From contig VBBT01000114.1 of NCBI GenBank assembly GCA_005881695.1, forward strand, positions 1-32,943: a stretch of 32,943 nt of DNA, read 5' to 3'. The position numbers were made by a program, and so were the translations under genes. The notes beneath the pieces were generated by a model. That model had not been told where the DNA came from, ran no database searches, and saw only the letters and a list, made by a program, of their open reading frames with translations. This DNA comes from Candidatus Bathyarchaeota archaeon (lineage in GTDB: Archaea; Thermoproteota; Bathyarchaeia; 40CM-2-53-6). Of the stretch, positions 8,044 through 31,790 are shown piece by piece (position 1 is the first letter of the stretch; every line of letters starts with the position of its first letter).

Positions 8044-8661
8044 TTGGTAACGACCGCAGGCGCCTTCAACGTTCCGCTGAAGTGTACACCCGAAGAAACT
8101 AAGCATTTTGTCGAACCGGCTATGAAAGAGGCCGAAGGCTCTAACTTTACTGGAGCATTGGAGGTTGTCAACGACGGATTGAACGCCCATCCCGCTTCCG
8201 AAGGGCTTCTCTTTCTCCGATCGTATTTCTGCTACAAGATTGCAGATAGCATAAGCAGTGAGCTCAGCGCGCTGCCGAAACCAATTCAGCCGTTAGCAGA
8301 GGGTGTACTGATGGTTGATGGCGCAATGACAAACCAGATGCTTGGTCGATTCCAAGAGATTGTCAAAGTTCTAGGAGACGCTGAGGAGGCGATCAACGAG
8401 ATATTGCAGGTGAACCCCCATAACAACGAAGTTACCGCCTTCAGAGCCTACATTGACAGCAAGCTGCAAAAGCTGGGGCAAGAGTCCGAGAATATGCGGA
8501 TGACTTTCACAAACACCCCTAACATCGCAGGCAATTTCTGCGTGGGATGCAGGAAGAATATTTCGTTCGACACACAAACGGTCGTGTTCCGGAAAACCTC
8601 CTCTACACAACTAGAAGTTTGGCATCTCCCATGCTTCAAGCAGCTGGGCAACAAGAACTAG
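8044..8661 (+). CDS. TPR-like protein with C-terminal CxxC/HxxC zinc motif
   Basis: 205 residues; no named family recognised. The N-terminal 155 residues are alpha-helical with TPR-like pairs (A-M-K-E-A-E-G-S-N-F-T-G-A-L-E-V-V-N-D then N-A-H-P-A-S-E-G, and a later A-E-E-A-I-N-E-I-L-Q-V-N-P-H-N). The C-terminus has C166-x2-C169 and H194-x2-C197 around an F-D-T-Q-T-V-V-F-R-K strand, like a small treble-clef or LIM-type zinc knuckle. TTG start; an internal start is possible, so the exact N-terminus is uncertain. It converges on the YgfZ-like gene, with the stop codons overlapping by four bases. Confidence 0.7.
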   Translation: MVTTAGAFNVPLKCTPEETKHFVEPAMKEAEGSNFTGALEVVNDGLNAHPASEGLLFLRSYFCYKIADSISSELSALPKPIQPLAEGVLMVDGAMTNQMLGRFQEIVKVLGDAEEAINEILQVNPHNNEVTAFRAYIDSKLQKLGQESENMRMTFTNTPNIAGNFCVGCRKNISFDTQTVVFRKTSSTQLEVWHLPCFKQLGNKN

Positions 8662-9692
8662 ACTAACTTGGTTATTACTGTAGGCAGCGGGCCGTGAGCC
8701 GATTCAACGAATAGCTTAGTTCCTTCCTTGGCAAAGTCTCGCTGGGCATAACCCAGACCTACGACGGCTTTCAGTCCGGGGGAGTATGCAGCGCTGGTGA
8801 CGTATCCTGCTTCTTTGCCGCTTGCCTGAAGCTTCGACTTTTGGCCCGGTACGTGATCAGAGTCGGTTTGAAACTGAACAAGGTTCTTGTTTACCCGGCC
8901 AATGTGAGTAGCTCGGGCCACAACCTCCTGACCGAGATAGCATCCCTTAGTGAAACTGATAGCATCTTTGTATCCAGCTTCCAGGATTATCGTATTCTCG
9001 TCTACGTCGACCCCATATTTTGGGTATCCTGCTTCAAGCCTGAGAATTTCTAGCGCATCTTGCCCTACTGGGGTGACTCCTTTGAGGAGGAAGCCTTGCC
9101 AAACTGCCTCAGCCTCGTCATTTGGAATTATCATATCGTATCCAGATTGACCGGTCCGGTCGCGAACGACGATCATGGTAGGGCCTATCATCATGTGCTG
9201 CAAGGGCTTCATGTCTGCGAATGCTGTCCCGAACAACTCTTTCGCGTTCTCAGTCGCTTGCGGCCCTTGCATTGTTAGGTGAACAAATTCAGAGGTGATG
9301 TCTTTGACTTGTACGTCCTCGGTAATGATGAAGCGGTCGAAGGTATCTCTAACCCTTGCTGCTGGAGCATCACCGGTGTCGATGAGAAGATCATCTTCTC
9401 TTGCATAGAGGTAGAGGTCCGCTAGGACTCTGGCTTTTGTGTTGAGAAGTGCTGAGCGGACGCCTGTCCCTTCGTTCAGCTTCAAGACTTCGTTAGTGAC
9501 TAGTCCGTTGAGGAAGGGTAGTCTGTCCTTACCTGTTATTCGTAGTAGGCCGAGGTGTGAAAGGTCGGCTAGACCCGAATGGTTTCGGACGGCCCAGTAT
9601 TCTTCAGCTGGACTAGTGTAGGATAGTGGAATCCGGCTTTGTTCCAGCTGGGCGCCCATCTTCTCATGATGCAGAACCAGAGGATTGGACAT
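8658..9692 (-). CDS. YgfZ/GcvT-like folate-binding protein
   Basis: 344 residues of the aminomethyltransferase (GcvT) fold. The signature K-G-C-Y-L-G-Q-E at 249-256 is that of the YgfZ/IBA57 subfamily, whose members use tetrahydrofolate in iron-sulfur cluster assembly or repair. The N-terminus (A-V-R-N-H-S-G-L-A-D-L-S-H-L-G) resembles GcvT. No genes for the glycine cleavage system are beside it, which fits the YgfZ reading better. ATG start. It is alone on the minus strand next to the tRNA. Confidence 0.87.
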   Translation of the reverse strand: MSNPLVLHHEKMGAQLEQSRIPLSYTSPAEEYWAVRNHSGLADLSHLGLLRITGKDRLPFLNGLVTNEVLKLNEGTGVRSALLNTKARVLADLYLYAREDDLLIDTGDAPAARVRDTFDRFIITEDVQVKDITSEFVHLTMQGPQATENAKELFGTAFADMKPLQHMMIGPTMIVVRDRTGQSGYDMIIPNDEAEAVWQGFLLKGVTPVGQDALEILRLEAGYPKYGVDVDENTIILEAGYKDAISFTKGCYLGQEVVARATHIGRVNKNLVQFQTDSDHVPGQKSKLQASGKEAGYVTSAAYSPGLKAVVGLGYAQRDFAKEGTKLFVESAHGPLPTVITKLV

Positions 9693-9804
9693 GCCACTTT
9701 ACACGGTTCCAGTCGCGGGTAATAGGATTGAGCCCATGTCGTTCACCTTTGGTTTGGACTAGCGTCAGCTATTTTTCTTGATGGTGCGGCCGCCGGGATT
9801 TGAA

Positions 9805-9830
9805 CTCCCGAACCGCTGTCAAGGCGGTTT
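9805..9830 (-). other. tRNA intron 2, at the non-canonical position 53/54 (T arm)
   Basis: 26-base intron between the 3' end of the first T-stem strand and the T loop. It has a relaxed bulge-helix-bulge: 4-bp helix CCCG/CGGG, 3-base bulges GGA and AGT, and an inner 6-bp stem AACCGC/GCGGTT with a 7-base loop. Cutting after the second bulge base on each side restores CCGGG-TTCAAAT exactly. Confidence 0.85.
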
Positions 9831-9845
9831 CCCGGGTCGTCAGCG

Positions 9846-9863
9846 TTCTGCTAAGCCTAGGAT
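9846..9863 (-). other. tRNA intron 1, at the canonical position 37/38
   Basis: 18-base intron one base after the anticodon. The bulge-helix-bulge has 4-bp helix CTGC/GCAG, bulges CAA and AAC, and the 5-bp anticodon stem as the outer helix. Cutting after the second bulge base gives the 7-base loop CTGCCAC. The inner helix is very short. Confidence 0.85.
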
Positions 9864-9930
9864 TGGCAGGCTGATATCATAGACCAGGCTAGACCACGGC
9901 CGCACAAAACGAACTCCAAAGCTACCGGTC

Positions 9931-9937
9931 ATTTAAA
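9931..9937 (-). promoter_or_regulatory. TATA-like box of tRNA-Gly
   Basis: The minus strand reads TTTAAAT, ending 28 bases before the first base of the tRNA. This is the standard archaeal position. It suggests transcription starts a few bases before the mature 5' end. Confidence 0.6.
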
Positions 9938-10032
9938 GACTGAGCAAGCTGAGGAGCCACGAAACTGGGATTTCCCAATCGTGCACGCCGACTTGTGCCA
10001 TGTTCCATTGTCTTAAATAGAAAAATAGGCTC

Positions 10033-28063: not shown

Positions 28064-28330
28064 ATGACAGCAACGACAATTACGATCTCCGAGGACCTCA
28101 AGAGGGACCTTCTCAGGGTGGCTGCCCGGCTCCAAGCCTCTCGTGGACAGAAGATAGACTATGACGATGTTCTCAGATACCTGGTGAGGAAGGCTACGAG
28201 GAACATGGCTCTCTTCCGGCAAGCATGCGCGCCCACCGGAGTATCCTCACGCGAGCTTCGAAAGCAGCTGGCGAAGGGAAGGGAAGAGGACAGGAAGAAG
28301 GAACTCAGCCTCGAGCGAAGACACTCTTAG
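28064..28330 (+). CDS. VapB-like antitoxin
   Basis: 88 residues with an ATG start. The N-terminal ribbon-helix-helix-like part reads T-T-I-T-I-S-E-D-L-K-R-D-L-L-R-V-A-A-R-L-Q-A-S-R-G, then Y-D-D-V-L-R-Y-L-V-R-K. Basic C-terminal part (L-R-K-Q-L-A-K-G-R-E-E-D-R-K-K) would wrap the toxin. This is the usual archaeal VapB form that pairs with a PIN-domain toxin, which lies right after it. The family would bind its own operator. Confidence 0.82.
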   Translation: MTATTITISEDLKRDLLRVAARLQASRGQKIDYDDVLRYLVRKATRNMALFRQACAPTGVSSRELRKQLAKGREEDRKKELSLERRHS

Positions 28331-28337
28331 CGGAACA

Positions 28338-28748
28338 ATCTCCCTTGACGGCAGCGTCTTGATCGAGCTCCTCTCTTCAACTGATCTCTCCAAGCCTCTC
28401 CGGGACGCAATAGAGGCGGATACCGTCAACCCTTACACCACATTCCAATCGCTTACCGAAGCCGAGTACATTCTCTGCAGAGAGATAGGCTGGGAGAAGG
28501 CTAGAGGAAAAATCGAAGGGCTGACCGAGTCTAGAGCCATTGAACTGGTAGAGGCGAGCGAGCTGGTCCACGAAACGGCCCGGATAAAATGTGCACGTGC
28601 GATAGCACTCACCGACTGTTACACTATCGCCCTTGCAGAGAAAATCAACGGAACAGCCGTCTTCGCCCATCTCGAAGATGACCTGTCTCGAGAGATAAGG
28701 AGAAAGCCATTCTCGACGAAACTCGCCTTCCTTGAACCGGCCCGCTAG
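28338..28748 (+). CDS. VapC-like PIN-domain toxin without a canonical start codon
   Basis: PIN-domain RNase. Acidic residues visible: the first D in I-S-L-D-G-S-V-L-I-E-L-L, E in S-L-T-E-A-E-Y-I-L-C, D in A-L-T-D-C-Y-T-I-A-L, and the acidic D-D after A-H-L-E. The only standard start in frame (TTG at 28359) would remove the first catalytic Asp. The frame is open for more than 100 bases upstream but has no ATG, GTG, TTG or CTG; ATC at 28338, 8 bases after the antitoxin stop, is the best position. The start therefore is unusual or mutated, or the gene is silent. Confidence 0.72.
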   Translation: MSLDGSVLIELLSSTDLSKPLRDAIEADTVNPYTTFQSLTEAEYILCREIGWEKARGKIEGLTESRAIELVEASELVHETARIKCARAIALTDCYTIALAEKINGTAVFAHLEDDLSREIRRKPFSTKLAFLEPAR

Positions 28749-30696: not shown

Positions 30697-31233
30697 TTGA
30701 GCGACATAAACTACACGAGGGCCACCATGTCAATCCTCGACACCTTGTCAAGAGATCCGGACAAAAGTCTCTACACCAGGGAGGTCGCAGAACGTTCGGG
30801 CATCAGCGTGGGCGCCGCGAGCATGATACTCAGAGTCCTTGAAGGGTCCCACATGATAGACGTCGAGGAGAAGGGAGGGATGAAGTTCTACAGGATCAAC
30901 CTGTTGAACCCTGTCGCCAGAGAGTTCAAGGTCCTGTTCAACGTTCAGAAGATTAGCTGTCTCGTCGAACCTCTCAAGGAGTATTCCGACCGCATCATCT
31001 TATTCGGCAGCTTCGCAGATGGAACTGACGGTCCGGAGAGCGACGTAGACCTCCTTGTTCTTACCTCCGAACCCCACGCGGCCAAAGACCTCTTCCGCCT
31101 CCTTCAGAAGAAGATCGACAGACACCTCTCTCCCATAATAGTAGGAGCCGAAGGACTTGCCCGATTACGAAGAGACGACAAGGCCTTGTTTGAACAAGTA
31201 TATCGTGGCAAGACACTTTGGGAGAAACAGTAA
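30697..31233 (+). CDS. wHTH-MNT nucleotidyltransferase (antitoxin-like)
   Basis: 178 residues with a TTG start. N-terminal winged helix-turn-helix (S-L-Y-T-R-E-V-A-E-R-S-G-I-S-V-G-A-A-S-M-I-L-R-V-L-E), then the MNT domain with L-F-G-S-F-A-D-G-T (G104-S105) and E-S-D-V-D-L-L-V (D116, D118). MNT proteins are antitoxins that AMPylate HEPN RNases. The wHTH could make this one its own repressor. It overlaps the HEPN gene by 16 bases, so the two are coupled. Confidence 0.85.
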   Translation: MSDINYTRATMSILDTLSRDPDKSLYTREVAERSGISVGAASMILRVLEGSHMIDVEEKGGMKFYRINLLNPVAREFKVLFNVQKISCLVEPLKEYSDRIILFGSFADGTDGPESDVDLLVLTSEPHAAKDLFRLLQKKIDRHLSPIIVGAEGLARLRRDDKALFEQVYRGKTLWEKQ

Positions 31234-31790
31234 GCCCAGTTCTCAGAAAGCTCCTTGAGGAAAGGAGGATTCTAAGGTCTAGAACCTCGAGCCGTATGGT
31301 TGCCAAAGAACTCAAAGGTTCGGAGTTAGACCTGGCAACCGCCAAGGCGTCTTATGAGGCAGGAGATCACAAATGGGCAACGGTTCAGGCTTACTATTCC
31401 ATCTTCCACGCTGCGAGAGCTCTGTTGTACAACAAGGGGTTCAGGGAGCGCAGCCATAGAGGACTCCTCAAGGCGCTCGCAGAACTCTACTCTCGTAACA
31501 CCCTGTCGGACATGCTGGTTGTGTTTGAAGAATCAATGAGCCTGAGAGAAGATGCCGATTATGAACTCGTCCATTCCGAGCAGGGGGCCGGCGAGGCTTT
31601 GGAAGATGCAGAGATCTTCTTTGAAAGGTCCAAGATGATATTGCGCGACAGCATCGACGGCCATCGTCGAGCCCGCGTCCAGGGAGAGGATCTACTCTCT
31701 TATCTCGAAAAGTCCAAGGATTCACGAGGTGCAATATCCAAGAGGACGCGCAAGCATCAGGCACCTCGAGGGCGCCGTCAAAAACCGTAA
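31218..31790 (+). CDS. HEPN-domain RNase toxin-like protein
   Basis: 190 residues with a TTG start inside the MNT gene. The HEPN helices show A-T-V-Q-A-Y-Y-S-I-F-H-A-A-R-A-L-L, R-S-H-R-G-L-L-K-A-L, and the S-L-R-E-D-A-D-Y (R110, Y115) motif that in HEPN toxins contributes to the active site. The tail from ~145 is basic and looks untypical (S-K-R-T-R-K-H, G-R-R-Q-K-P). Forms the toxin half of an MNT-HEPN pair with the preceding gene; role as RNase inferred from the family. Confidence 0.82.
   Translation: MGETVSPVLRKLLEERRILRSRTSSRMVAKELKGSELDLATAKASYEAGDHKWATVQAYYSIFHAARALLYNKGFRERSHRGLLKALAELYSRNTLSDMLVVFEESMSLREDADYELVHSEQGAGEALEDAEIFFERSKMILRDSIDGHRRARVQGEDLLSYLEKSKDSRGAISKRTRKHQAPRGRRQKP

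Follow-up and report, generated by a model that had tools for sequence, protein, structure and literature searches.

A tRNA-Gly(GCC) gene with two predicted introns, one of them in the T arm, in a genus of soil Bathyarchaeia

Archaeal tRNA introns outside the canonical position 37/38 form bulge–helix–bulge (BHB) motifs, occur alone or together with a canonical intron, and have been listed for several positions including 53/54 in the T arm (PMC4090602; Sugahara et al. 2007/2008). T-arm introns have also been reported for Caldiarchaeum (PMC3293823). Genes with several introns, many at non-canonical positions, are known from the Thermoproteales, where Pyrobaculum calidifontis has 46 tRNA genes with 71 introns and the number of introns per tRNA gene is 0.84, compared with 0.21 for all archaea (PMC8450103). 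In wetland-soil Asgard archaea, 92–95% of the tRNA genes are interrupted, often at non-canonical positions and by multiple introns (PMC11291895). The heteromeric splicing endonuclease (EndA) has an extra loop that is reported to be essential for the recognition of relaxed BHB motifs (PMC4033280).

The tRNA-Gly(GCC) gene described in the present study, with introns at 37/38 and 53/54, shares the BHB outside 37/38 with the non-canonical introns described previously. What differs is the host, a soil Bathyarchaeia genus in which all 17 genomes with a recoverable gene carry the T-arm intron in tRNA-Gly(GCC), tRNA-Gly(UCC) or both. The Thermoproteales resemble this genus in having several introns per gene, many at non-canonical positions, and a similar density (approximately 1.5 per resolved gene in the genus), but they belong to another class, and the density for the genus was obtained using a purpose-written solver on 21–23 resolved genes per genome. 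The Asgard archaea, likewise from soil and with most tRNA genes interrupted, belong to another phylum, and their introns were called on complete genomes. Within the same phylum, a family with genomes of 2.7–3.4 Mb (f61; L178–L182) has a tRNA-Gly(UCC) with introns at 37/38 and 53/54 and the same T-arm geometry, although the gene is for UCC rather than GCC and its acceptor and intron sequences are different; the two-intron genes of this family and of the host are probably either of independent origin or very ancient. Other families of the phylum also have T-arm sequences with this geometry. Both the kind of T-arm intron and the type of enzyme are thus already known, and the host lineage is what is added. 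No report of a T-arm tRNA intron in Bathyarchaeia was found in open-access papers, which is weak evidence as subscription papers lay mostly outside the search. The preliminary description of this DNA had stated that T-arm introns are known mainly in some TACK archaea, and the host is itself a TACK archaeon.

Gene layout and detection by scanners

Within the window (the whole stretch of DNA that was analysed, 32,943 nt), the preliminary description had placed a tRNA-Gly(GCC) gene at 9782–9903, with an 18-base intron at 37/38 and a 26-base intron at 53/54. The gene lies on the minus strand, which had not been given, and runs from 9903 to 9785 as a pre-tRNA of 119 nt, with CCA encoded directly after it at 9784–9782. 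When the two insertions, of 18 nt (9863–9846) and 26 nt (9830–9805), are cut out, a 75-nt tRNA is left, with a GCC anticodon, a class I cloverleaf and a TTCRA T loop, to which the encoded CCA is added. The features are as follows.

9929–9938, minus strand: putative archaeal TATA box CTTTAAATGA, −35 to −26 relative to G1 (TTTAAA in 16 of 17 orthologues at about the same distance)
9864–9903, minus strand: exon 1, tRNA positions 1–37, with the acceptor 5′ strand, D arm and anticodon GCC (sequence; same in 16 orthologues)
9866–9869, minus strand: central helix of the 37/38 motif, exon strand, C32 U33 G34 C35 (orthologues; segment folding)
9846–9863, minus strand: intron 1, 18 nt, at 37/38, bulge–helix–loop type with a weak inner helix (cut search; orthologues)
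9848–9851, minus strand: central helix of the 37/38 motif, intron strand GCAG, then the bulge AA/C38 (orthologues; segment folding)
9831–9845, minus strand: exon 2, positions 38–53, with the anticodon stem 3′ strand, variable region and T stem 5′ strand CCGGG (sequence; orthologues)
9833–9836, minus strand: central helix of the T-arm BHB, exon strand, C48 C49 C50 G51, then the bulge GG/A (sequence; covariation)
9805–9830, minus strand: intron 2, 26 nt, at 53/54 in the T arm, canonical BHB (cut search; covariation; missing from tRNA-Gly genes of related families)
9811–9829, minus strand: inner hairpin of intron 2, AACCGC-CTTGACA-GCGGTT (covariation)
9807–9810, minus strand: central helix of the T-arm BHB, intron strand CGGG, then the bulge AG/T54; alternative pairing with CCCG could give a decoy T stem (sequence; folding)
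9785–9804, minus strand: exon 3, positions 54–73, with the TTCAAAT loop, T stem 3′ strand, acceptor 3′ strand and A73 (sequence; orthologues)
9782–9784, minus strand: genomically encoded CCA (sequence; CCA in 17 of 17 orthologues listed)

A GcvT/YgfZ-like aminomethyltransferase-family gene (window 8658–9692) begins 92 nt downstream of the tRNA gene. The same gene order was found in L091–L093 and L099, and the tRNA lies 0.8–4.4 kb upstream of the GcvT/YgfZ-like gene in L094–L096 and L098. Elsewhere in the window, a nucleotidyltransferase gene (with a MarR-like domain) adjoins a HEPN gene at 30697–31790, resembling an MNT-HEPN toxin–antitoxin pair, and at 28064–28748 a small putative antitoxin gene is followed by one with a PIN domain.

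The precursor scored 30.5 bits with Rfam RF00005, compared with a gathering score of 29, and ARAGORN detected no tRNA anywhere in the window, nor any in the precursor when introns were allowed. Once both introns were removed ARAGORN called tRNA-Gly(gcc), and in intron mode it made the same call with the T-arm intron alone removed. ARAGORN is blind to the precursor as long as the T-arm insertion is kept, showing that this insertion is what hides the gene, as had been expected of such introns in standard scans. The cut sites were searched with the solver, which considers all pairs of cuts compatible with a 4-bp helix and two 3-nt bulges, takes out as many as three such introns and rates the cloverleaf that is left. 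Its top answer was exactly the 37/38 and 53/54 introns, 3 points above the runner-up, and was unchanged at a higher cost per intron; the two introns originally proposed were therefore recovered at first rank.

BHB motifs and covariation

At 53/54, a central helix of CCCG with CGGG is flanked by the bulges GG/A and AG/T (the stroke marks the predicted cut), so that both the 4-bp helix and the two 3-nt bulges of the motif are present; the outer helix read from the sequence is 2 bp (GA with UC). The inner helix had at least 4 bp in 28 of 28 distinct introns and at least 5 bp in 26, corresponding to the strict hBHBh′ form. At 37/38, a 4-bp central helix (CUGC with GCAG) and two 3-nt bulges (CA/A and AA/C) are likewise present, and were kept in 17 of 17 orthologues (GCAG once being GCGG). 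The inner helix at this site was 0–3 bp in the orthologues and 1 bp in the host gene, which falls short of the strict hBHBh′ form, and the 37/38 intron is a relaxed motif of the bulge–helix–loop type. Thus the earlier assignment of both introns to BHB motifs by eye holds in the strict sense for the T-arm intron, where covariation supports it, but not for the intron at 37/38.

The first four pairs of the inner hairpin were paired in all 28 of the distinct T-arm introns, compared with shuffle means of 21–26, and at pairs 1–3 and 5 the observed pairing exceeded all 2000 shuffles, which ignore kinship. Pairs 1 and 2 alternated between A-U and G-C, and pair 3 between C-G and U-A, in both paralogues and in several lineages. 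Pair 1 is the most informative of these. In the minimum-free-energy (MFE) structure of the isolated T-arm segment, G52 was paired with an intron U to give a 5-bp central helix in a register other than the canonical one. Since G pairs with U or C alike, the G52 register needs no matched change, and the changes observed support the canonical BHB; covariation therefore favours the canonical register over the MFE register. Compared with shuffles, the folds of the isolated segments gained little in stability (z −1.04 and −1.43), and the MFE fold of the whole precursor was not a cloverleaf and contained a decoy T arm beside the intron hairpin. MFE folding alone is a poor guide here.

Conservation among relatives and the splicing endonuclease

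The nearest named records are genomes from soil metagenomes, mostly Candidatus Bathyarchaeota (BA_9, BA_24, others and two 40CM assemblies), with 80–95% identity to the protein of the neighbouring gene. Among 16 orthologues (the GCC gene of G019, partly masked by N, was excluded from the comparison) the exon sequence was identical at 75 of 75 nt, with both introns varying: at least 12 versions of each were present, and 13 and 14 distinct versions when the more distant L078 was added. The exon identity and the conserved TATA box are consistent with selection that acts on the exons of this gene alone.

Two patterns were used: one, for the 3′ part of tRNA-Gly, covered 41 related genomes, and the other, which required the T-arm insertion, covered the 256 genomes of the class that were searched. 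The insertion was found in 17 of the 18 genomes of the genus, in tRNA-Gly(GCC), tRNA-Gly(UCC) or both; the eighteenth (52% complete) gave no tRNA-Gly match of any kind. Beyond the genus, it was present in two further genera of the same family and, within the order, in five genomes from a second family (in the GCC gene, among those inspected), making 24 separately assembled genomes in two families of the order and 25 of 256 in the class, and the reversed control pattern gave zero matches in the 256-genome search. In other families of the order the T arm of tRNA-Gly was uninterrupted, reading CCCGGG directly followed by TTCAAATCCCGG, with the junction exact to the base. These intronless homologues are a natural counterpart of the spliced sequence at the predicted 53/54 junction. 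That removal of the introns restores the anticodon and T arms, as first proposed, agrees both with the ARAGORN call on the spliced sequence and with its identity to the intronless homologues at the T-arm junction.

The other tRNA-Gly isoacceptors are interrupted as well. tRNA-Gly(CCC) has an intact T arm, its introns being at 37/38 and in the D loop, and tRNA-Gly(UCC) of the host (G000:C110:9562-9680; L021, L066) has a 53/54 T-arm intron plus an 18-nt intron near 25–28 rather than at 37/38. A sister-genus tRNA-Gly(UCC) (L079; G018:C8) apparently contains three introns in a 162-nt precursor, one in the D arm (approximately 40 nt), one near 27/28 (18 nt) and one at 53/54 (30 nt). In one genome (G007; L070, L106) the GCC and UCC genes have almost the same T-arm intron, which is not so in other genomes and suggests that gene conversion took place between this pair of genes. 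A further match to the T-arm-intron pattern in another family (L165; G038:C2:133155-133208), for which the acceptor partner was not found, was not counted as tRNA-Gly and may be a split or permuted tRNA, some other unusual tRNA, or a chance match. Neither the host assembly (82.5% complete) nor those of its genus mates, whose completeness reaches 95%, yielded a second, intact tRNA-Gly(GCC), and at 82.5% completeness such a gene could be absent from the host assembly. The two-intron gene is the sole tRNA gene detected in the host for two glycine codons.

The host genome has two different EndA genes, as an alpha2-beta2 enzyme requires. One (G000:C99) encodes 189 amino acids with Tyr, His and Lys in FAVY, IDHAP and TVRKQF, positions which we take to be the catalytic residues of the family, and contains FGKPVGIPKPKPDQDF, presumably the crenarchaea-specific extra loop of the catalytic subunit. 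This protein was aligned to PDB chain 3p1z_B over nearly its full length (E 7.5e-42), and FGKPVGIPKPKPDQDF aligned to the matching stretch with a 1-residue gap. The other (G000:C147) encodes a degenerate subunit of 176 amino acids without the His motif. Two EndA loci were found in most relatives. The host enzyme is thus predicted from its genes to be of the heteromeric alpha2-beta2 type, resembling the crenarchaeal enzymes (PDB 3p1z and 3ajv) in combining a catalytic subunit that carries the extra loop with a degenerate partner. The preliminary description had suggested looking for a heteromeric endonuclease, and had named the lack of a suitable enzyme together with another intact tRNA-Gly(GCC) as the genomic evidence against its proposal; an EndA pair was found, and no intact copy.

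Interpretation and introns across the genus

Taken together, our results make it almost certain that this is a working tRNA-Gly(GCC) gene with its own TATA box, whose two introns are presumably spliced by EndA before the exons are ligated; from the gene structure and conservation we infer transcription, cleavage, ligation and charging or use in translation. The TATA box would drive a precursor of about 120 nt, in which the alpha2-beta2 EndA would recognise the bulge–helix–loop at 37/38 and the full BHB at 53/54 and cut each site after the second nucleotide of the 3-nt bulge. A putative tRNA ligase (RtcB type) would join the three exons. Removal of intron 2 would free C49–G51 from the intron, where C48–G51 pair with CGGG, and C49–G53 could then pair with C61–G65 to restore the T stem.

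Other readings of the locus were rejected on the control pattern, the covariation, the intronless homologues and the conservation of the exons. A decayed pseudogene, bearing random insertions while the true tRNA-Gly(GCC) lies elsewhere, would agree with the failure of ARAGORN on the precursor and with the low Rfam score, but is very unlikely given that the exons are invariant in 16 orthologues, the intron hairpin covaries, no intact GCC gene was found in the genus and the UCC and CCC isoacceptors are interrupted too. Slightly less probable again is splicing of the 37/38 intron alone, with the second insertion retained as an extension of the T arm whose decoy stem (CGGGA with UCCCG) closes a 7-nt loop, GUUCAAA. 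The precursor MFE fold does contain such a decoy arm beside the intron hairpin; the arrangement would, however, displace the invariant UUCAA loop by a single nucleotide, and every orthologue would keep an extension of approximately 25 nt ahead of its T stem, whereas the intronless homologues have a normal T arm, and the BHB register covaries though the decoy has no need of it. The unexceptional folding energies of the isolated segments are what a chance hairpin-bearing insertion or an assembly error mimicking an intron would give, but its recurrence in separately assembled genomes of two families, the empty control search, the covariation and the exon identity leave this hardly credible.

Under the preferred reading of two spliced introns, the T-arm intron might in addition act as a folding switch, in which its 3′ end CGGGA and UCCCG of exon 3 form the decoy T stem in alternation with the BHB. 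The A after CGGG was kept in nearly all distinct T-arm introns (one exception, L112, by eye), and since BHB pairing alone does not need it, this is a point for the decoy stem. We consider the switch improbable; if it exists, splicing would decide when the mature T arm forms.

An approximate catalogue of introns was obtained by applying the solver to the best matches, at most 30 per genome, to Rfam (L001–L030, L213–L242), in which 6–9 matches per genome were not placed and single positions may be off. Among these best matches, the host had 31 introns in 21 resolved tRNA genes (18 interrupted), a genus mate (G012) had 37 in 23 (21 interrupted), and a genome from another family of the order (G029) had 16 in 23 with its three tRNA-Gly genes all intact. 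The density in the genus is thus approximately 1.5–1.6 introns per resolved tRNA gene among the best matches, many of them in the D arm. tRNA-Asn(GUU) in the genus has three introns, one at 8/9.

Through covariation and intronless relatives, the gene offers a clean comparative example of a T-arm intron from a lineage where no open-access report of one was found. With nearly nine in ten of the resolved tRNA genes of the genus interrupted, much of its tRNA set is missed by standard scanners, and counts of tRNAs taken as an index of how complete a genome is will therefore be too low.
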